A model generated the notes under the pieces. It had not been told where the DNA came from, searched no databases, and saw nothing but the letters and a program-made list of their open reading frames with translations. From assembly GCA_963513935.1 (NCBI GenBank), contig OY740773.1:99247291-99311290 (forward strand): a stretch of 64,000 nucleotides of DNA, in the 5' to 3' direction. The translations under genes were made by a program, and so were the position numbers. Within the stretch, counting starts at the first letter, position 1. The number at the start of each line of letters is the position of its first letter. This DNA comes from Aphrophora alni (Eukaryota; Arthropoda; Insecta; Hemiptera; Aphrophoridae). This document shows positions 19,906-63,340 of this stretch, piece after piece.

Positions 19906-20117
19906 GTAGGCCTTAGCGACCCTAGTATTATCCAAAATCCAGAGCTTGAATCATTCAAACGACCTCAAAGTTTAGGGAAAGCGCACACTTGTTGTATGAA
20001 CAAGTTACTTTGTTCACCGGTTGTGCTTGGATTGGGGATACAACCACTTCATACACTGTTGTCAGCGTTATTTTGTTACGTGGTAAATTATCCTAAAAGG
20101 TTTTCTTTATAAAATAG

Positions 20118-20938
20118 TTGAAGATCTCAAAAATAGGTTTCCAAGACTTGAAGAACTTTCTATTTTCTCAGACGGCCCCTCATCCCAGTTTAAGAACAAG
20201 TTTACAGCTCATCTGCTTTGCTCACTGCAAAAAGACTTCAGTATAGACGTGGAATGGTTGTTCTTTGCAACATCACATGGCGAAGGAGCCGTAGATGACA
20301 TCGGGGGTGCACTGAAACGCAGTGTTTGGCTTACTATTAAATCTAGAAAGCGTCTGGTCTTAAGTGCTTACAACTTTTATGAATGTGGTAAGGAAGAAGT
20401 TATTCGTCAAGAAAACCGGATGAATTCGGAGTTGAAAAATGTTTTAAAAGTTCTCACTATCCGGTCAAGCCACTTCATGCGTCCTTATCATGAGAGCCAG
20501 AGTGTACTTGTAGAAATAACCCGACATGACATCATAAAACAATCTTCTCCCACAAAACAACGTTTCCATTATCAATGTCTACTCTAGTTCACAAGATGAA
20601 GTGGATGCGAGCTGTGCGTCTCAAGATGACATTTCTAAGCTTCAAAACTTAGACTACCTAAATGCCGTGACTAATGGATCATTTATTGAAGTTGAAATAA
20701 CAAGCAAGAAGGGACTTAAACATAACTATTTTGCTATTTTCAAAGAAAAAGTTGAAAGTGAAGAGTTACTTGTTACAGTGGAGTTCTTGAAACAATGTAC
20801 AAAGAAGGATAAACTGTTCACACTCGATGAAAAATCGGCTTCGTTCAAGAGCAACATTAGTATAAAACAGATTGTAAGAATCCTAGATCAGCCTGATATA
20901 GTAACAAAAGGAGAAAGAATCTACTATAAATTTGTCTA
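20118..20938 (+). pseudogene. Element A gene, C-terminal SDG-x3-Q-x-KN / SHG domain, frameshifted
   Basis: After an acceptor (TTTATAAAATAG, ending 20117) the frame reads EDLKNRFPRLEELSIFSDGP then SSQFKNKF. About 35 residues after the motif aspartate (codon 20171) comes FFATSHGEGAVDDIGGALKR (histidine codon 20276). Many uncharacterised invertebrate proteins share this pairing, which recalls an RNase H-like nuclease core, though the enzymatic role is not proven. The first frame stops at 20587. A second frame (coding from about 20562, tail to 20938) continues SSSQDEVDASCASQDDI and ends GERIYYKFV, so a single-base shift near 20560 breaks the gene. A polyadenylation-like AATAAA lies at about 21226. 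It is a transposase-like remnant, not a host gene as far as I can see. Confidence 0.6.
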
Positions 20939-21187
20939 AAGAATTGTTTTTGTAAATTGGTTTGAACTTTGATTGATGTAAGAGCTGAAAACAGATTTTT
21001 TTTTCCTTCACACAATGACTCTTGTACGTTAAGTGAGATTTTTCTTAAGTGTATATTTATTTATGTTAGGCCTATTTTAAATTAAAATACTCTTAAGTAT
21101 GTTAGGCAATGTATTGTATTGCTCAGGAATTAAAACTGAATGTTAAAAATCAAATAGTGGTTTAATTTAAATCCACAATTCACACGT

Positions 21188-24160: not shown

Positions 24161-24769
24161 ACAAGTGGAGTTACCTCATACATTCAATTTGGTGGGAGGG
24201 CATGAGGCAAGTCAATTTTTTTTAAATATTGTCACGTGATACATAAATTTAAAGGACTACATGAGAAAAGAAAGAATTTTTTTGGAACACTGTAATGAAA
24301 ATGGCTGCCATTGACGTTGTTGTATGAAGATAGCTAGAGAGGAAATTGCACCTCAACACTTGACTTTACAATCTGATTATGATTTCTTCAATCTTATCAG
24401 ATAAGCGATACTAATTTTAGGTTTCTGGCAATAATATCGTGAGTTATCGAAAAAAGTTAAAAATCTTACTTTTGACTGTTATCAATACGTAATTTCTCAA
24501 AATCTGTTCAACCGATTTCGTTTAAATTTGAGTAAAATGTAAAGATAAAGGACAATCCCGTTTATGACAAATAAAAGTATGTTATACTTGAGGAATAATC
24601 GTTAAAAAAAACAAATACAATCATTAAAATGTTGACTGCTGTTAAATATGATTTACTCTAAGGAAGTTGTTGTGGTACAAACGAAAAACATTGAGGTCTG
24701 AATTTAAATATTTGATCAAATGGATATGCATTTTATGATTCATTTTCACTTTTTAAATAACCAGTACCA
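24161..24769. other. Non-coding stretch with R2-like blocks
   Basis: No coding frame. CTCAAAATCTGTTCAACCG and nearby blocks resemble R2. Confidence 0.35.
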
Positions 24770-25690
24770 AACTTACATTTTTGGAGATATTTAGTTTTGA
24801 TTCCTTTTTAAACGTGCATTTTTGGAGATAATTAGAAGGTTAGTTACTAAACTTAAATTTTTGGAGAGAACTATTAGGTGAATTTTAAACTTATATTTTT
24901 GGAGATTATAAGTTTTGGTTCGTGTCTAAACTTTCATTTTTGATTATAATTAATTTTGGTTAGTTTCTAACCTTACATTTTTAGAGATAATTAGTTTAGG
25001 TTCCTTTGTAAATTTACATTTTTGTAGATAATTGATTTTGGTTTGTTTCTAAACTTACATTTTTGGAGATAAAATTGTTTTTGGTTCGTTTATAAACTAA
25101 CATTTTTTGAGATAAATACTTTAGGTTGGTTTCTGAACCGAAATTTCGGTGATAATTAGTTTCGTTCGTTTCCAAACTTACATTTTTGGAGATTATAAGT
25201 TTTGGTTAGTTTCTAAACTTACATTTTTGAAGATTATAAGTTTTGGTTAGTTTCTAAACTTACATTTTTGAAGATTATAAGTTTTGGTTAGTTTCTAAAC
25301 TTACATTTTTGAAGATTACAAGTTTTGGTTCGTGTCTAAACTTACATTTTTTAAGATTATAAGTTTTGGTTAGTTTCTAAACTTACATTTTTGAAGATTA
25401 TAAGTTTTGGTTAGTTTCTAAACTTACATTTTTGAACATAATTAATTTTGGTTAGTTTCTAAACTAACATTTTTGAGATAAATACTTTAGGTTGATTTCT
25501 GAACTGAATTTTTGGTGATAATTAGTAGGGTTCGTTTCCAAACTTACACTATTGGAACCAATTAATTTGGTTAGTTTCCAAACTTACTTTTTTGGAACCA
25601 ATTAGTTTTGGTTCCTTTCCAAACTTACATTTTTGGAACCAATTAGTTTGGTTTATTTCTAAACTTACATTTTTGGAGAAAATTATGTTA
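24770..25690 (+). repeat. 41-bp minisatellite array (about 22 units)
   Basis: Tandem units close to 41 bp with the core TTTTGGTTAGTTTCTAAAC and TTACATTTTTGAAGATTATA. The middle units (about 25190-25430) are nearly identical, and the outer ones are diverged and vary in length, as expected for an array that homogenises at its centre. Confidence 0.92.
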
Positions 25691-26816
25691 AGGTTAGTTT
25701 TTATTATGTTTTAGTGATGTGTGAGAGAGAATGTTTCTGTAATGGACCATTTATTTTATGTTATCTTACACAGTCCGGAACTGAGACACACCCATCATGT
25801 GTATTGTGTTTTGTCTATTGGTTTTGTGTTTTTATCTTAGTACAATAACAGACTTTTACAAGCGAAAAATCTGACGATGGAACATAGTTTCCGAAACGAA
25901 CAAAATTAAAAAATAAGGGAGTCTAAATACGAATTTAAGCTTCCATAATAACTCAGACAAAGGAAGATTTATTGATGCAATATCATAAATGTAAGATGAA
26001 GATAACTATCAGTTTTAGGAGTGATAAGATAAACAATAACAATTGTTATCATTGATAAACACAATTCTTAGATAGTTTGTCACCTATCTTTATTTACTAC
26101 ATTTACGTTGTAATGTAAATGTAGTTACGTGATGGGTTTATATCAGTTTTGAATCAAAACAAGGTTGGTTTTTGTAATGATGTCTTCTCATCACATAGCA
26201 TTCTTTGTACTATAACTTATTTAAAAACATTAAAAGCTAAATTTGAACCTTTCGCTTTAAAAATTATGAAGTAAATTAATGGTGCAATATTGAAAATTTT
26301 ATATTGGAAAACGGCGAGCATTTTTCAAAACGGATTTTTAAATTTCATCAAAATCGAAGATCCCCACTTAACGTTTTCTATAGGATCAATTGTGTAGATA
26401 ATAGTACCCATGAATAATGAACTCCTTTTATTTTAAAAATCAGACTTGCACAACAAGTTTAGATAAATATAGAATATGATATCAGTACAAGATAAATAAC
26501 GTGTTTCTACTCGGTACACTTGTATAAATACAGAACAGCTGTAATGAAAAAAGGTTCACTGAAGAGAAAGAAGCAAATGGTCTTTAAGGACATACGTGTG
26601 ACGTAATCAGAACTTTCCGTCAGTGATACATTGGTTATATTTAATTCAAATAAATAAATAATATAGTTATGCAATATATTATATTTTAGTAAACACTCTA
26701 GACACAATTTGATTCCCATTTTGACCAAAATTTGGTGCGTAGGATCGGTTAAAAACGGAAAAGCCTTTTAATTTAAAAAATTTGATCAGTTACTTTCATA
26801 ATAGTGGCTGAAACAG
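25691..26816. other. Non-coding region before the satellite
   Basis: No gene. It includes a short region with an imperfect hairpin around 26010-26070 (GATAAACAATAACAATTGTT ATCATTGATAAAC-type symmetry) and plain AT-rich DNA. Confidence 0.4.
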
Positions 26817-27319: not shown

Positions 27320-29137
27320 TTAGGTTAAGCAACGATTATTGGACCGTGTCCCCCTCCCTTGTCTTGTGATTAGCGTATCATACAATAGGTTTGACTTAAA
27401 TGACAGCTGATCATTCAATATGTTATTAGGTTCAGCTTTTAAACCTTTGTAGATTTCGAATTCCTCTAACGCGTTTAGAGTATTTCCTTTCTTACATTTA
27501 TGTAATATACTCATATTAGTAGTAATATCAGTATATGAATGGAGGTTATTGATAAGATGTTCGGCATAAGTAGATTTGATAACTCTAAGGTTGCTATGTG
27601 GCAAATGTTCTTTGTATCTGATGTTAAAGGGACGTCCAGTTTGTCCTATGTAGAAACTAGGACAATCATTGCATAATAACTTGTAGACACCGGTTGTTTT
27701 ATATTCATCGAATTTTTCTCTAGTTTTTGGTTTAAGCAGAAATTCCAACTTATTAGTGGTACGGAACGTGAGAATGATGTTATTATTGGCCATTATATTT
27801 CTTAAAATGTTGTTGAACATGTTACCATAAACACATGAGGCATATTTTTTCTTTTCGCTATTATTACACTTAGTTGTTATTTTTTGTGTCATTTTCTTTT
27901 TCTTATGCTTACTTATTAATTGGTCTACGATAGTTGTCCTGTAGCCATTAGCTTGTGCGATGTGTTTAATAACATTCCTTTCTCTCTCATAATTTGTAGC
28001 GGACATGGGTACGGATAAAAGTCTATATACAAGGCTGTTATAAGCGGCTAGTTTTTGCTCTATTGGGTGATGAGAAGATTTGTGTATGGTTTTATCTGTA
28101 GTTGTAGGTTTTCTGTATATGTTGAATGCGATTCTTGTATTGTTCCGAGTTAAGTTGAGGTCTAAGTAATTCAGGCCATTATTATTTTCGATTTCTGCGG
28201 TAAAGGTGAGGTTGGGATGTATATTATTTATAAAATTGGTTAAAAGGCATAATTGTCTGTCACTGCCATTAAATACAATAATGGTATCATCGACATATCT
28301 GTTATAGAATATAATTTTATTTCTAAATGGGTTAGAATCAGCAAACAAGTAATTGTTTTCTATGTAGTTCAAATATATTTCAGACAATATACCAGATAGG
28401 GGTGAGCCCATGGCTAGGCCGTCGTTCTGTAAAAAATATTCATTGTTAAAAGTGAAGTAATTCTGCTTTAGGGTTGTTTTTAGGAGGTTAATAAATTCGT
28501 CTATTGCAGGCTTCTGTAATGTGGAATTCTTTTTTAGGTTATTATGTATGATCTCTATTGTTTGTTGAACCGGGATGTTTGTGTACAAATTTACTATGTC
28601 GAAGGAAGCAAGTTTGTATGTGCTTTCTATTTTAACATCATTTAACTTATTAATGAGGTCCGTACTATTTTTAAGGCTATAGTCCTCTTCGAATAAGTAA
28701 TGTTTTCGCAATAATTTATCTAGTTCTTTAGATAAATTATATCCTGGAGCAGGTGTAAAGTTCACTAACGGTCTGATAGGGGAATTGGGTTTGTGAATTT
28801 TAGGTAGACCTCTCAGAATGGGGGCGTGTGGATTAATATTTTTTAAGCGACGTATTTTAGTATCGGACAATAGGGTTTTACTTGTATTCAAAGATTTGTT
28901 TATTAATTTGTTATAAGTGACAGTGGGATCTTTAGTCATTTTGTTTATATTGTTGGCCTGGAAGAAATCATTGACCTTGCCATTGTAAATAGTCTTATCA
29001 ATAATGACTATTGAATTCCCTTTATCAGCTTTGGTTATGAGGGCATTATGTTTTATTAGTTTATCTTTAATGCCGGCTGAGGCCTGCCTAATGATATTGG
29101 TTTGTCTGTCTGAGATAACATTGTGCTGTTTGGTTGA
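27320..29137 (-). pseudogene. PLE reverse transcriptase/GIY-YIG ORF, 5'-truncated inverted copy (L)
   Basis: The open frame corresponds to codons 88-692 of the full-length ORF2 at 31590-33668 and ends at the same stop codon. It keeps the whole polymerase core (SFDIVNLYTNIP, GLAMGSPLSGI, YNRYVDDTIIV) and the GIY-YIG domain, but has lost its first 87 codons and the upstream ORF1. The first internal ATG gives a 539-residue product (from 28939). No promoter belongs to it in this orientation. It is classed as a pseudogene because of the truncation only: no stop or frameshift is visible, and the protein matches the intact copy. Confidence 0.85.
29098..29137. other. 40-bp loop at the centre of the PLE palindrome
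   Basis: These 40 bases belong to copy L only (equivalent to 31851-31890 of copy F, reversed). They separate the two 2066-bp arms. The two copies join at 29137/29138 with one base of shared sequence. Confidence 0.85.
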
Positions 29138-30915
29138 ATATCATTAGGCAGGCCTCAGCCGGCATTAAAGATAAACTAATAAAACATAATGCCCTCATAA
29201 CCAAAGCTGATAAAGGGAATTCAATAGTCATTATTGATAAGACTATTTACAATGGCAAGGTCAATGATTTCTTCCAGGCCAACAATATAAACAAAATGAC
29301 TAAAGATCCCACTGTCACTTATAACAAATTAATAAACAAATCTTTGAATACAAGTAAAACCCTATTGTCCGATACTAAAATACGTCGCTTAAAAAATATT
29401 AATCCACACGCCCCCATTCTGAGAGGTCTACCTAAAATTCACAAACCCAATTCCCCTATCAGACCGTTAGTGAACTTTACACCTGCTCCAGGATATAATT
29501 TATCTAAAGAACTAGATAAATTATTGCGAAAACATTACTTATTCGAAGAGGACTATAGCCTTAAAAATAGTACGGACCTCATTAATAAGTTAAATGATGT
29601 TAAAATAGAAAGCACATACAAACTTGCTTCCTTCGACATAGTAAATTTGTACACAAACATCCCGGTTCAACAAACAATAGAGATCATACATAATAACCTA
29701 AAAAAGAATTCCACATTACAGAAGCCTGCAATAGACGAATTTATTAACCTCCTAAAAACAACCCTAAAGCAGAATTACTTCACTTTTAACAATGAATATT
29801 TTTTACAGAACGACGGCCTAGCCATGGGCTCACCCCTATCTGGTATATTGTCTGAAATATATTTGAACTACATAGAAAACAATTACTTGTTTGCTGATTC
29901 TAACCCATTTAGAAATAAAATTATATTCTATAACAGATATGTCGATGATACCATTATTGTATTTAATGGCAGTGACAGACAATTATGCCTTTTAACCAAT
30001 TTTATAAATAATATACATCCCAACCTCACCTTTACCGCAGAAATCGAAAATAATAATGGCCTGAATTACTTAGACCTCAACTTAACTCGGAACAATACAA
30101 GAATCGCATTCAACATATACAGAAAACCTACAACTACAGATAAAACCATACACAAATCTTCTCATCACCCAATAGAGCAAAAACTAGCCGCTTATAACAG
30201 CCTTGTATATAGACTTTTATCCGTACCCATGTCCGCTACAAATTATGAGAGAGAAAGGAATGTTATTAAACACATCGCACAAGCTAATGGCTACAGGACA
30301 ACTATCGTAGACCAATTAATAAGTAAGCATAAGAAAAAGAAAATGACACAAAAAATAACAACTAAGTGTAATAATAGCGAAAAGAAAAAATATGCCTCAT
30401 GTGTTTATGGTAACATGTTCAACAACATTTTAAGAAATATAATGGCCAATAATAACATCATTCTCACGTTCCGTACCACTAATAAGTTGGAATTTCTGCT
30501 TAAACCAAAAACTAGAGAAAAATTCGATGAATATAAAACAACCGGTGTCTACAAGTTATTATGCAATGATTGTCCTAGTTTCTACATAGGACAAACTGGA
30601 CGTCCCTTTAACATCAGATACAAAGAACATTTGCCACATAGCAACCTTAGAGTTATCAAATCTACTTATGCCGAACATCTTATCAATAACCTCCATTCAT
30701 ATACTGATATTACTACTAATATGAGTATATTACATAAATGTAAGAAAGGAAATACTCTAAACGCGTTAGAGGAATTCGAAATCTACAAAGGTTTAAAAGC
30801 TGAACCTAATAACATATTGAATGATCAGCTGTCATTTAAGTCAAACCTATTGTATGATACGCTAATCACAAGACAAGGGAGGGGGACACGGTCCAATAAT
30901 CGTTGCTTAACCTAA
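29138..30915 (+). pseudogene. PLE reverse transcriptase/GIY-YIG ORF, 5'-truncated tandem copy (M)
   Basis: Equivalent to codons about 102-692 of the full-length ORF2. The frame is open to the normal stop at 30913-30915 but has no native start, and the preceding codons belong to the inverted copy L. It is head-to-tail with copy F, and its trailing terminal region (30916-31164) acts as the upstream pseudo-LTR of F. In Penelope elements this partial upstream copy commonly supplies the promoter of the next copy, which I infer here too. The protein sequence is the same as in F over the shared part. Confidence 0.87.
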
Positions 30916-31188
30916 CTTCAGTCAGTACCATCTTAAACAACTGATGCGGTGTGCACACCAATGTTCGTATATAAAAAAGTGCGTGTTTTGACTCTAACGA
31001 TCTCCACACGGAGTGAAATATATATGTGTTTTTGCGTTCTTGTGTATGTGATATGATTATAAAAACCTGATGATGGGTACTTCATGCCCGAAATTGCAAT
31101 TGTTTTATTGAGAGAAAACAAAAAGGATCAACAGACGTGAGTACTCACATTTAATATAATATAATTATATAATTGATCCGTGGCTAAT
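30916..31188 (+). repeat. PLE pseudo-LTR upstream of the full-length copy
   Basis: Terminal region after the ORF stop of copy M, repeated at 33669-33917 and inverted at 27030-27319. It contains the hammerhead motif and the 12-bp palindrome GTGAGTACTCAC (31137-31148). The 62-codon minus-strand frame found in all three copies is a by-product of this repeat. Confidence 0.8.
31055..31112 (+). ncRNA. Hammerhead ribozyme motif in PLE pseudo-LTR (copy M/F junction)
   Basis: Core box CTGATGA at 31067-31073 is followed by a hairpin GGGTA-CTTCA-TGCCC (31075-31089) and then GAAA (31090-31093). The next bases ATTGCAAT (31093-31100) can form a very short, palindromic stem III. Stem I pairs AAAAC (31062-31066) with GTTTT (31102-31106). 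The predicted cleavage falls after T31101. One extra U (31074) lies between CUGAUGA and stem II. Minimal type I hammerheads with short stem III are established in Penelope-like elements. The distance from this cleavage site to the equivalent one at 33854 is 2753 nt, exactly one unit. Activity is inferred, not shown. Confidence 0.78.
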
Positions 31189-31590
31189 ATGATTGATTCA
31201 AAATTAAATGCAAGTCAAGCAAAATCAGCCTATCAATATAAAAATATCAAACTAAGAATGATAAAGACAGCACATAATATTAAGTTCAATAAAGCATGCT
31301 TACACAACAACGTCATTCCCAATTACATTTCTATAAACATAAGGAATAATTCAAGAGCTGCATGTACCGCTAAAAAAGCCGCCACATTAACCTGGTTAAA
31401 AAGCGAAATTAAACACCTCTACGGTAAAAAAGACAGATTGAACACATTACTCTACAAAAAACACATCGAAATGTGCAATTATTTGCACCCTGCTCAGATT
31501 GAATCTGTTTTTCTCAATATTAACAAACAGATTAACTTAATTATTAACCGCAAAAAGTCTATTCAAAAGAAAAAAAATTCAATCTCTTAA
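31189..31590 (+). CDS. PLE ORF1, N-terminal lysine-rich protein
   Basis: A 133-residue protein begins at ATG 31189 (a longer frame opens with GTG at 31180). It is basic and helix-rich: MIDSKLNASQAKSAYQYKNI, an internal TLTWLKSEIKHLYGKK, and a lysine-rich end KSIQKKKNSIS. No enzyme motif is visible. In other Penelope elements the corresponding region is the N-terminal part of a single ORF of about 840 residues. Here 133 + 692 gives about 825, so ORF1 most likely represents that N-terminus. Its stop TAA (31588-31590) overlaps the ATG of ORF2 by one base (TAATG). An A run just upstream (31570-31577) could equally have gained or lost a base in this copy. The other two copies are truncated before this point and cannot decide it. 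Confidence 0.8.
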   Translation: MIDSKLNASQAKSAYQYKNIKLRMIKTAHNIKFNKACLHNNVIPNYISINIRNNSRAACTAKKAATLTWLKSEIKHLYGKKDRLNTLLYKKHIEMCNYLHPAQIESVFLNINKQINLIINRKKSIQKKKNSIS

Positions 31591-33668
31591 TGGACAAACA
31601 ACACGGACATAAAATAGTCACATGTGAACATAATTTCTTTCCACGTGTCATAAACAATACAGACATTGAATTTACTGAAATTGAATTATCTCTATTGCAT
31701 AAGGGCCTAAATCACAATCTTGTTAGAACTAATAATGCTCGCGGCATCCAAAGTGAAATAATTAATGCAGAAACCGTCATAAAAATGTTACCAACGATGG
31801 AATCTCAAATAACCGCAAGGGCAGCGATAAATAATAAATTAAAGCTACGTTCAACCAAACAGCACAATGTTATCTCAGACAGACAAACCAATATCATTAG
31901 GCAGGCCTCAGCCGGCATTAAAGATAAACTAATAAAACATAATGCCCTCATAACCAAAGCTGATAAAGGGAATTCAATAGTCATTATTGATAAGACTATT
32001 TACAATGGCAAGGTCAATGATTTCTTCCAGGCCAACAATATAAACAAAATGACTAAAGATCCCACTGTCACTTATAACAAATTAATAAACAAATCTTTGA
32101 ATACAAGTAAAACCCTATTGTCCGATACTAAAATACGTCGCTTAAAAAATATTAATCCACACGCCCCCATTCTGAGAGGTCTACCTAAAATTCACAAACC
32201 CAATTCCCCTATCAGACCGTTAGTGAACTTTACACCTGCTCCAGGATATAATTTATCTAAAGAACTAGATAAATTATTGCGAAAACATTACTTATTCGAA
32301 GAGGACTATAGCCTTAAAAATAGTACGGACCTCATTAATAAGTTAAATGATGTTAAAATAGAAAGCACATACAAACTTGCTTCCTTCGACATAGTAAATT
32401 TGTACACAAACATCCCGGTTCAACAAACAATAGAGATCATACATAATAACCTAAAAAAGAATTCCACATTACAGAAGCCTGCAATAGACGAATTTATTAA
32501 CCTCCTAAAAACAACCCTAAAGCAGAATTACTTCACTTTTAACAATGAATATTTTTTACAGAACGACGGCCTAGCCATGGGCTCACCCCTATCTGGTATA
32601 TTGTCTGAAATATATTTGAACTACATAGAAAACAATTACTTGTTTGCTGATTCTAACCCATTTAGAAATAAAATTATATTCTATAACAGATATGTCGATG
32701 ATACCATTATTGTATTTAATGGCAGTGACAGACAATTATGCCTTTTAACCAATTTTATAAATAATATACATCCCAACCTCACCTTTACCGCAGAAATCGA
32801 AAATAATAATGGCCTGAATTACTTAGACCTCAACTTAACTCGGAACAATACAAGAATCGCATTCAACATATACAGAAAACCTACAACTACAGATAAAACC
32901 ATACACAAATCTTCTCATCACCCAATAGAGCAAAAACTAGCCGCTTATAACAGCCTTGTATATAGACTTTTATCCGTACCCATGTCCGCTACAAATTATG
33001 AGAGAGAAAGGAATGTTATTAAACACATCGCACAAGCTAATGGCTACAGGACAACTATCGTAGACCAATTAATAAGTAAGCATAAGAAAAAGAAAATGAC
33101 ACAAAAAATAACAACTAAGTGTAATAATAGCGAAAAGAAAAAATATGCCTCATGTGTTTATGGTAACATGTTCAACAACATTTTAAGAAATATAATGGCC
33201 AATAATAACATCATTCTCACGTTCCGTACCACTAATAAGTTGGAATTTCTGCTTAAACCAAAAACTAGAGAAAAATTCGATGAATATAAAACAACCGGTG
33301 TCTACAAGTTATTATGCAATGATTGTCCTAGTTTCTACATAGGACAAACTGGACGTCCCTTTAACATCAGATACAAAGAACATTTGCCACATAGCAACCT
33401 TAGAGTTATCAAATCTACTTATGCCGAACATCTTATCAATAACCTCCATTCATATACTGATATTACTACTAATATGAGTATATTACATAAATGTAAGAAA
33501 GGAAATACTCTAAACGCGTTAGAGGAATTCGAAATCTACAAAGGTTTAAAAGCTGAACCTAATAACATATTGAATGATCAGCTGTCATTTAAGTCAAACC
33601 TATTGTATGATACGCTAATCACAAGACAAGGGAGGGGGACACGGTCCAATAATCGTTGCTTAACCTAA
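31590..33668 (+). CDS. PLE ORF2: reverse transcriptase with C-terminal GIY-YIG endonuclease
   Basis: 692 residues, intact. KADKGNSIVIID lies near residue 124 and LPKIHKP starts at 198. Polymerase motif A is SFDIVNLYTNIP with Asp267, followed by GLAMGSPLSGI, and the catalytic YVDD is at 368-371. The C-terminal GIY-YIG nuclease starts GVY (570-572), has CNDC (576-579), FYIGQTGRPFNIR (582-594, with Arg594 as the expected catalytic arginine), a downstream H598 and a late LEEFEIYKGL with a candidate metal-binding glutamate. This order is diagnostic of endonuclease-containing Penelope-like elements, which copy their RNA into nicked DNA in the nucleus. ATG 31590 is chosen because it overlaps the ORF1 stop. 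An upstream frame fused by frameshift is the alternative. No inactivating change is visible, so this copy may be functional. Confidence 0.95.
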   Translation: MDKQHGHKIVTCEHNFFPRVINNTDIEFTEIELSLLHKGLNHNLVRTNNARGIQSEIINAETVIKMLPTMESQITARAAINNKLKLRSTKQHNVISDRQTNIIRQASAGIKDKLIKHNALITKADKGNSIVIIDKTIYNGKVNDFFQANNINKMTKDPTVTYNKLINKSLNTSKTLLSDTKIRRLKNINPHAPILRGLPKIHKPNSPIRPLVNFTPAPGYNLSKELDKLLRKHYLFEEDYSLKNSTDLINKLNDVKIESTYKLASFDIVNLYTNIPVQQTIEIIHNNLKKNSTLQKPAIDEFINLLKTTLKQNYFTFNNEYFLQNDGLAMGSPLSGILSEIYLNYIENNYLFADSNPFRNKIIFYNRYVDDTIIVFNGSDRQLCLLTNFINNIHPNLTFTAEIENNNGLNYLDLNLTRNNTRIAFNIYRKPTTTDKTIHKSSHHPIEQKLAAYNSLVYRLLSVPMSATNYERERNVIKHIAQANGYRTTIVDQLISKHKKKKMTQKITTKCNNSEKKKYASCVYGNMFNNILRNIMANNNIILTFRTTNKLEFLLKPKTREKFDEYKTTGVYKLLCNDCPSFYIGQTGRPFNIRYKEHLPHSNLRVIKSTYAEHLINNLHSYTDITTNMSILHKCKKGNTLNALEEFEIYKGLKAEPNNILNDQLSFKSNLLYDTLITRQGRGTRSNNRCLT

Positions 33669-59847: not shown

Positions 59848-59854
59848 TATATAT

Positions 59855-59887
59855 GAATGCTTTAATTTCAAAACGATCTAAGTGCCA
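59855..59887 (+). repeat. Element B left terminal inverted repeat
   Basis: Starts GAATGCTTTAATTTCAAA and ends with the motif CGATCTAAGTGCCA. It is the reverse complement of 61329-61361 except for one base. Confidence 0.85.
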
Positions 59888-59917
59888 AAAAATAATTTTT
59901 TTTTTTAAATTGCAAAG

Positions 59918-60053
59918 TGATCTAAGTATCAACGCCAATGCACGTCTATAAGATCTATATGCCAAATAATTTTCTGTTGGTTTTTATAGCCTTCCATAGA
60001 ATGCGCTGTGTGTATGTCCAGTGGGAGCGCCTTTCAATTCGATCTAAGTGCCA
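59918..60053 (+). promoter_or_regulatory. Element B left subterminal motif cluster
   Basis: Variants GATCTAAGTATCA (59919-59931), AGATCTATATGCCA (59951-59964) and the exact CGATCTAAGTGCCA (60040-60053), all in the same orientation as in the left TIR. Repeated subterminal sites of this kind are where transposases bind in several DNA transposon families. The role here is inferred. Confidence 0.6.
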
Positions 60054-60136
60054 CCTGCTTGGAATTGGTTTGTTTACATGACATGAAACTGCTCTGTTGC
60101 ACAACACTTTGTTATTGTTTTTTTACAAGGTTTTAA

Positions 60137-61096
60137 TTGTTTTTGATTATAATTGGCGCAAGTCCAGATTCTCGTGAAGCTAAAGTGAAACTTGAACTAC
60201 ACCAGAAAAAAGCTGGTAAGGTTTTTGAAACCATGAAAAATGATGCAATTTGTAGCACAAGACCGGGCAGTACTACTATCAATATAGTAATGGACTTACA
60301 AAAAGTCTTTCCCATCCCAAAGCTCACACACAGTGACATGTATTACAGCCGCCAACTTTCCTGCTACAATTTTGGAATCCATGTTAGTAATAACGCAGAT
60401 GGTATTATGTGTGTTTGGCACGAAGGGCAATCGGGACGTGGTGGCAATCAGATGGCGTCTTGTCTCTTCCAAGCAATAAACTCTGATCTTCTGTCAACTA
60501 CTGATAAAAAACATTTAGTTGTTTGGTCCGATAACTGTGCTGGTCAGTTAAAAAACAGAATGTTAGTATTTTTGTATAAATACTTAGTATACATTGGAAT
60601 GTTTAACACTATCGAACACAAATTTCTAGTGACAGGGCACAGCTTTTCATCTGCCGACAGAGATTTTGCGCTGATTGAAAAGCGAGCTAAAAAATGTTCG
60701 CAGATGGAAACTGTTGAGCATGTGATGAATATTATAGCTACAGCTAGGCCTTCCAAACCATTTAAAGTTCTGAACATGAGTGAAAAGTTTTTTAATTTTG
60801 ATTTGGCAGGAGAAAATTATATAACAACTAAAAAACTGGGAATTTCATCTATATCAATGATGAAAATCTGCAAAGATGAACCAAACAATGTCCTCTTCAA
60901 AACATCTTTTTTCGGCGATTGGCAAAAGTGCAACGTGTTAAAAAAAGGAGTTAAGATTGAAGATCTCAACAATATGACACTTGAAATTCTTCCTACCTCA
61001 GTGCCAATATCTGAAAATAAAAAGAAGGACCTACGTGCTATGCTGGACTACATTTCAGAGCCAAACAGAACCTTTTACACCAATTTGTGCGCCTAA
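60137..61096 (+). CDS. DUF7869-like protein of element B (transposase-like)
   Basis: The frame is open from 60137 (TTG, directly after an in-frame TAA). The first ATG is 60233, and a possible acceptor AG lies at 60161-60162, so upstream exons may once have existed. Numbering from 60137: AKVKLELHQKKAGKVFETMK near 15-34, MDLQKVFPIPKL, YYSRQLSCYNFGIHV, MCVWHEGQSGRGGNQMASC, then VVWSDNCAGQLKN with Asp132, Gln137 and Asn140. Thirty-six residues after Asp132 comes GHSFSSADRDFALIEKRAKK with His168, Asp174, Asp176 and Glu181. This order is that of the arthropod family annotated as DUF7869 (from memory). Function is unknown; the D...H/D...E layout suggests an RNase H-like nuclease. Family members are usually longer, so the N-terminal half seems lost. 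There is no internal stop. It lies within TIRs, so I infer a mobile-element gene. Confidence 0.75.
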   Translation: MFLIIIGASPDSREAKVKLELHQKKAGKVFETMKNDAICSTRPGSTTINIVMDLQKVFPIPKLTHSDMYYSRQLSCYNFGIHVSNNADGIMCVWHEGQSGRGGNQMASCLFQAINSDLLSTTDKKHLVVWSDNCAGQLKNRMLVFLYKYLVYIGMFNTIEHKFLVTGHSFSSADRDFALIEKRAKKCSQMETVEHVMNIIATARPSKPFKVLNMSEKFFNFDLAGENYITTKKLGISSISMMKICKDEPNNVLFKTSFFGDWQKCNVLKKGVKIEDLNNMTLEILPTSVPISENKKKDLRAMLDYISEPNRTFYTNLCA

Positions 61097-61103
61097 GATC
61101 CAT

Positions 61104-61150
61104 AGGACTTAGATCGGTTTGAAAGAAAACCAGCCATGGACATAGATCGT
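61104..61150 (-). promoter_or_regulatory. Element B right subterminal motif cluster
   Basis: GGACTTAGATCG (about 61105-61116) and TGGACATAGATCGT (61137-61150) are reverse-orientation variants of TGGCACTTAGATCG in the right TIR. The first is followed by GTTTGAAAG, close to the GCTTTGAAA that follows the motif in the right TIR. Confidence 0.6.
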
Positions 61151-61272
61151 TCTGCTGACTGGGTACATCAAATTTTTTTTCTTCCTTGTGTGTTTTAATA
61201 ATTTAATTTTTTAACATAAGAGCACTTTTTTATATTTTTAACTTATGTAAAAATAATGTTGTACCCTATTGA

Positions 61273-61278
61273 AATAAA
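61273..61278 (+). terminator. Polyadenylation signal AATAAA after element B gene
   Basis: AATAAA about 177 bases after the stop codon and before the right TIR. A transcript could therefore end inside the element. Confidence 0.5.
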
Positions 61279-61328
61279 ACTATTATAAAACTACAGTGTT
61301 TTTATTGATTACCCGAAAATTTACGTTA

Positions 61329-61358
61329 TGGCACTTAGATCGCTTTGAAATTAAAGCA

Positions 61359-61361
<3 letters not shown>
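61329..61361 (-). repeat. Element B right terminal inverted repeat
   Basis: TGGCACTTAGATCG followed by CTTTGAAATTAAAGCATTC. Mirror of the left TIR. Confidence 0.85.

Positions 61362-61399
<38 letters not shown>
61362..61399. repeat. (TA)n microsatellite abutting element B
   Basis: About 38 bp of TA dinucleotides directly at the right end of the TIR. Confidence 0.95.
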
Positions 61400-63019: not shown

Positions 63020-63340
63020 AAAGACCTCTAGGCCATCAACGTCTGATTGAAAAAGGAAGAACTTAATGACCTCTAGCCCTTGAATAGTCTAATAGCGTAG
63101 TGTCGGACGAAAAGAAGAGTTGGTTAAGAGAGACCTAATAGGAAAGATAAAAAAGATACCTATCCTAATCTAACCTAACCTAACCTAACTTAACCTAACC
63201 TAACCTAACCTAAATAAACCTAACCTAATCTAACCAAACTTAACCTAACCTAACCTAATCCAAGATACAAGAAAAAAGGTGTAGATCCAGCTGTTGATCC
63301 TCGGGATTGTCAATCCCGTACTCATTATAATACCTATGAG
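63020..63340 (-). repeat. Dispersed repeat family R1, copy 11, interrupted by (CCTAA)n
   Basis: Minus-strand copy with GGGATTGACAATCCCGAGG, CAGCTGGATCTACACC, TCTCTCTTAACCAACTCTTC and CCTAGAGGTC-type ends. Where other copies read GATCTAACCCAAGA-like sequence, this copy has about 100 bp of CCTAA units. Confidence 0.7.
63163..63262. repeat. Interstitial (CCTAA)n array inside an R1 copy
   Basis: About 20 CCTAA/TTAGG-type units with few substitutions, located exactly at the position where R1 carries the seed AGGTTAGATC (plus sense). Confidence 0.9.

Follow-up and report, generated by a model that had tools for sequence, protein, structure and literature searches.

Two short inverted repeats around a single gene of an uncharacterised family raise the question of whether the gene belongs to a mobile element and, if so, whether it encodes the enzyme that moves it. 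We addressed this question at a locus of the insect Aphrophora alni, which lies within a stretch of 64,000 nucleotides of contig OY740773.1 (the window). The initial annotation had described positions 59848-61368 as a compact element in which 33-bp terminal inverted repeats (TIRs) with one mismatch bracket a 319-codon DUF7869-like frame, and had proposed it as a candidate new DNA transposon group. Our analyses argue with good confidence for a non-autonomous copy, shortened by an internal deletion, of a DUF7869 cut-and-paste transposon that was recently active and is most likely Sola2. The length of the TIRs and their single mismatch stood, while the span had taken in 7 bp of AT-rich flank too many on each side.

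A young multicopy family with a constant 4-bp target-site duplication

In the 1.70-Gb host genome, the 14-bp motif that forms the inner end of each TIR (CGATCTAAGTGCCA) had 89 occurrences and its reversed control one; the TIR is therefore not confined to this locus. A 28-base TIR pattern marked 67 ends, 61 of them exact and six with one mismatch (reversed control, 0). No end carried two or three mismatches, and no swarm of miniature inverted-repeat transposable elements sharing the TIR was seen. We examined 36 regions, which covered the motif sites outside the window except the last end of one L022 copy. The element was present in 33 of them, twice in one, giving 35 copies with the window included. 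Two further regions (L013 and L028) held only an isolated 14-mer without the element, and in L036 the 14-mer lay beside a 67%-identical DUF7869 relative. Among the 30 copies for which both ends were read, pairwise divergence averaged 1.6% (range 0 to 4.9%), with zero substitutions between the members of some pairs. This element family is young and recently active.

A perfect 4-bp target-site duplication (TSD) flanked 27 of these 30 copies (AAAT in 11, ATTT in 5, ATAT in 4, AATT in 4, AGTT in 2 and ATGT in 1), the kind of constant duplication that the initial annotation had proposed to look for. When the flanks were randomly re-paired, matches averaged 6.6 and reached at most 16 in 10,000 trials. 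AWWT described 24 of the 27 TSDs, and the extended target tended to the palindrome A[C/T]AWWT[G/A]T. Other lengths fitted poorly: 2-bp matches were found in 5/30 copies, 3-bp in 1/30 and 5-bp in 0/30. TTAA, the target of piggyBac-type groups, was absent from the 27 TSDs, and an 8-bp match, as for the ~8-bp duplications of hAT and P, appeared in 1/30 copies, the window copy, which lies in an AT run. An alternative description may be a TIR lengthened by T...A and a TSD of 2 bp, for which the empty site would be identical; we retained 4 bp because copies L012 and L022 do not have the left T that it needs. The flanks differed between loci, except for the two copies in L022 (G000 C2:96916600-96926599), which stand in opposite orientation ~6 kb apart with an identical left flank and are probably an inverted segmental duplication rather than two insertions. 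A host gene with chance TIRs is ruled out by the 35 copies, their varied flanks and the TSDs.

DUF7869 as the probable transposase and its relatives

The open reading frame at 60137-61096 matched PF25273 (DUF7869) with an E value of 4.9e-15 and 56.1 bits, against a curated cut-off of 26 bits, which bore out the family assignment made from the sequence alone. PF25273 had at least 150 matches in the host genome (150 scored among 1239 first-look candidates) and none in 14 control genomes. The predicted structure has an RNase H-like, integrase-like core bearing three conserved Asp (Table 1). Together with TIR-bounded relatives, the triad and the predicted fold support the suggestion of the initial annotation that at least some such proteins are transposases or derive from them, and DUF7869 is almost certainly the three-aspartate (DDD) transposase of this element. 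Searching solved structures by sequence gave none for P0001 and, for A1, only weak matches, with E 0.017 and 0.048, to a protein with ankyrin repeats.

Two other families of the host genome had defined ends. Family F4 (2576 bp, 546-residue frame) has TAAGTGCCA and the first GAA of the TIR in common with the window element, and three of its five copies read at both ends carried a perfect TSD (AAAT, AAAT and AATA). Family F3 (3198 bp, 732-residue frame) has an unrelated 37-bp TIR and was flanked by ATAT/ATAT in 3/3. For F1 and F2, element ends were not found.

DUF7869 was also present at 11 GTDB loci, and in 7 of 291 genomes from one bacterial class. In six of the 11 (L081, L083, L085, L086, L087 and L088) the gene was enclosed by 39-61-bp TIRs, several of which have GACAAAACCTACCTT-like sequence in common; when the first G was taken as the element end, all six were flanked by A..T on either side. 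Like the window element, these elements (e.g. L086 of Desulfocicer vacuolatum) combine the domain, the Asp triad and bounding TIRs. Profile homology extended over nearly the whole protein (E 1.8e-90), and the A3 alignment includes the window frame too. Unlike the window element, they have a different TIR sequence and an uninterrupted frame. Their genes gave no good NCBIfam model match, and the elements are a candidate for an undescribed insertion-sequence family. TIRs were not found at L082, which begins inside the frame, or at L084, L089, L090 and L091 (other contigs in this set are short), nor at L096-L098; those of L099 were the same as those of L088. Of 24 pattern matches in IMG/VR, none was confirmed as a relative.

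Elsewhere in the window, a fragment at 20087-20939 contains SDGPSSQFKNKF...HGEGAVDDIGG, a motif order that recalls the DUF7869 core SDNCxGQNKN...GHxxxxxD. No Pfam match was obtained for 20087-20584, and the fragment with SDGPSSQFKN reached only E 0.48 against the DUF7869 profile; it possibly represents a distant transposase group.

Placement among known transposon groups

Sola reportedly was defined by Bao et al. in 2009 through DDD transposases and 4-bp duplications, with bacterial members included. Sola2 has a DDD triad, with which D53, D132 and D174 in the predicted RNase H-like core would agree, and Sola as a whole is represented in both metazoa and bacteria, as is DUF7869 here. As PMC3627910 describes Sola2, its duplications are AT-rich, 4 bp long and of the form AWWT (ATAT, AAAT, ATTT), its TIRs measure 12, 13 or 21 bp, and derivatives that have lost most of the transposase also occur. 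The 4-bp TSD and AWWT target found here, also seen with 4 bp in F3 and F4, and the presence of TIRs are alike; the TIRs differ in length (33 bp here), and the Dictyostelium fasciculatum Sola2 transposase has 888 residues (PMC3627910), compared with ~570 deduced here for the full-length protein. On this description, membership in Sola2 is probable, and the new group proposed at first is probably not right, its 4-bp AWWT duplication (PMC3627910) and DDD triad fitting a known one. We classify the element as a probable Sola2 member, and the strongest rival is a superfamily of its own.

According to that rival, the animal and bacterial DUF7869 elements would form a DDD superfamily of their own, apart from Sola2 and all named ones, with a convergent 4-bp AT-rich target. 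No Pfam or NCBIfam transposase model was significant, the nearest being ISNCY_2 (E 0.0061, 1/6) and DDE_Tnp_ISAZ013 (E 0.018, 3/12); five of the six bacterial elements have TIRs that begin with GGGG, unlike the animal ones; and a literature search for 'DUF7869', itself incomplete, returned no paper. We do not claim the link between Sola2 and DUF7869 as unpublished. Against this rival, the triad and the bacterial occurrence agree with Sola, and the TSD length and AWWT target agree with Sola2 as described in PMC3627910. We regard such a separate, convergent superfamily as unlikely. Slightly less doubtful is the form in which DUF7869 is the transposase of its own bacteria-to-animal superfamily, with G...C ends in ANNT targets and the bacterial members as an undescribed insertion-sequence family; if true, many animal genes annotated 'DUF7869' would be transposases or domesticated relatives.

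Other groups resemble the element in part. Tc1/mariner transposons (Mos1, SETMAR, Sleeping Beauty) are cut-and-paste, TIR-bearing elements with an RNase H-like catalytic core, as predicted here, but they duplicate TA, in contrast to the 4-bp ANNT of this family, and no Tc1/mariner model was among the Pfam/NCBIfam matches listed. The P element and Ac-Ds likewise combine full-length elements with many internal deletions that keep the ends; they differ in their transposase and in an 8-bp TSD.

The window copy is an internally deleted derivative

The initial annotation had noted a missing N-terminus, and this loss was confirmed because full-length copies exist within the same TIRs: L009 (2531 bp), with an intact 532-codon stop-to-stop frame, and L010 (2549 bp), with a frameshift. 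The sequence suggests a further short exon upstream, which carries an ATG and would be joined through a GT-AG intron; with it, the full-length protein may reach ~570 residues. The other 33 copies were deletion derivatives. Class A (20 copies, among them L034 with an additional internal loss) lost ~306-1320 of the full element; class B (12 copies, including L012, which has the class-B junction and a further loss) lost ~317-1374; and L017, sole copy of its kind, lost 478-929. The class-A junction TATAATTATAATTGG, or a point variant, was found in 17/20 copies, and the window copy, L021 and L035 have one ATAATT unit fewer, which would reflect a subsequent contraction or else a second deletion close by. 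The latter, a deletion of its own at AATT microhomology, is one option for the window junction and not the preferred reading, because 17 other copies carry the same deletion plus one more ATAATT unit. Compared with L009, the window copy lacks the start codon, the putative exon 1 and intron, and the beginning of exon 2.

The 319-codon frame is best read as a relic. Among the 30 copies, distinct changes in the retained coding region comprised 63 non-synonymous, 16 synonymous and 2 stops, a non-synonymous to synonymous ratio of 3.9 against a neutral expectation of 3.87, which reveals no selection on the remnant. The same ratio speaks against the remnant being a working truncated protein, such as a transposition repressor. 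Open frames in the window copy and in the near-identical L021 and L035, and one of 308 codons in at least four class-B copies, would suit such a protein; in the 12 further class-A copies that were measured, however, the frames run to 120-262 codons instead of 313, and no ATG precedes codon 33 of the window frame, which leaves this explanation very improbable. Hardly credible is a passenger gene taken up by an unrelated transposon whose transposase lies elsewhere in the genome: the window copy is non-autonomous and gene capture by transposons is established, but DUF7869 lies between the TIRs in three animal families whose TIRs differ and in six bacterial elements, and its predicted integrase-like core has three conserved Asp.

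Several observations weigh against a DUF7869 transposon of the Sola2 type. A perfect TSD was absent in three of the 30 copies (L010, with one mismatch, L012 and L022) and in 2/5 copies of F4, and three of the 27 TSDs fell outside AWWT (AGTT twice and ATGT), as did the AATA of F4. The inward inner-TIR repeats of F4 (five sites, shuffle mean 0.84, max 7) are in number alone within chance. An exact 4-bp duplication flanked only two of the six bacterial TIR elements (AATT and AAAT), and the four bacterial genomes checked had a single copy each. For the empty site that the initial annotation had proposed to look for, the evidence is weak: beside L010, sequences related to the L027 insertion site have no insertion and match across the junction, but over just 20 bp on the left side and with an additional A. 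NurA nucleases top the plain Foldseek ranking, with poor template modelling (TM) scores; the model is middling (predicted local distance difference test, pLDDT, 68.7; predicted TM, pTM, 0.70; 12 sequences), and E96 is not kept across all bacterial relatives. The support for transposase function, although good, is computational, from sequence and model, and the Sola2 placement, although likely, draws on the described features of that group.

Inner-TIR motif and proposed mechanism

Within the element, CGATCTAAGTGCCA occurred at 10 sites with up to four mismatches, compared with a mean of 0.63 in 200 shuffles (max 3). Seven of them lie in or near the ends and all point inward, four on the left (0, 3, 3 and 0 mismatches) and three on the right (2, 4 and 0), i.e. 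three exact and four with 2-4 mismatches. These are the seven sites reported initially, and the motif belongs to the element. The remaining three, within the coding region and of mixed orientation, look like chance.

On the DUF7869 transposon reading, a full-length copy such as L009 would supply the transposase, whose cysteine-containing N-terminal half may bind the repeated motif in and beside the TIRs and bring the element ends together. The putative D53-D132-D174 site would then cut at the G and C of GAATGC...GCATTC, and the element would be joined to an AWWT target with a 4-bp stagger, repair of which would yield the 4-bp duplication. We infer that an ancestor of the window copy lost its start codon and N-terminal half but kept its ends, perhaps by gap repair following excision, and would subsequently have been mobilised in trans.

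Table 1. Features of the window element (window coordinates)
Feature	Position	Strand	Remarks
Complete non-autonomous element	59855..61361	+	1507 bp; ends fixed from 30 copies read at both ends
Left TIR, 33 bp	59855..59887	+	Final 14 bp are an exact motif copy
Right TIR, 33 bp	61329..61361	-	One mismatch to left TIR; inner 14 bp are an exact motif copy
Left TSD, ATAT	59851..59854	.	Ambiguous taken alone because it sits in an AT run
Right TSD, ATAT	61362..61365	.	Likewise ambiguous, within AT run
Subterminal motif copy	59918..59931	+	3 mismatches
Subterminal motif copy	59951..59964	+	3 mismatches
Subterminal motif copy	60040..60053	+	Exact
Subterminal motif copy	61103..61116	-	2 mismatches
Subterminal motif copy	61136..61149	-	4 mismatches
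Internal deletion junction	60151..60155	.	~1 kb lost; junction exactly common to L021 and L035; compared with L009
Retained 3' transposase frame, catalytic core and C-terminus	60155..61096	+	Inside the 319-codon frame
D53 codon, proposed first catalytic Asp	60293..60295	+	Predicted strand beta-1; conserved in all sequences of A1 and A2 and in at least 90% of A3
D132 codon, proposed second catalytic Asp	60530..60532	+	In the SDNC motif at the predicted end of beta-4; conserved in all sequences of A1, A2 and A3
D174 codon, proposed third catalytic Asp	60656..60658	+	In the GHS....D motif, predicted to start the helix that follows beta-5; conserved in all sequences of A1, A2 and A3

Other features of the window

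Three near-identical reverse-transcriptase frames lie at 27320-33668 (606 residues on the minus strand, 598 and 706 on the plus strand), the first two back to back. RVT_1 was detected in both frames tested; the C-terminal part recalls a GIY-YIG nuclease, perhaps of a Penelope-like element. The unit of a degenerate ACCTA array at 63158-63258 corresponds, when rotated, to CCTAA, which is complementary to TTAGG, the telomere repeat of arthropods; it would point to an arthropod host. Minisatellites were present at 1395-2184 (20-bp unit, 39.6 copies) and 24769-25700 (41-bp unit, 23 copies).

Significance

These results point to a likely function, and a mechanism, for a Pfam domain so far uncharacterised, which abounds in the host genome. 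With a likely transposase role for DUF7869, genes so annotated would therefore be recognisable as transposons and not host genes. The animal elements are tied to TIR-bounded bacterial elements carrying the same enzyme, and a young family with an intact full-length member, known ends, a known target and candidate binding sites makes the proposed transposase function directly testable.
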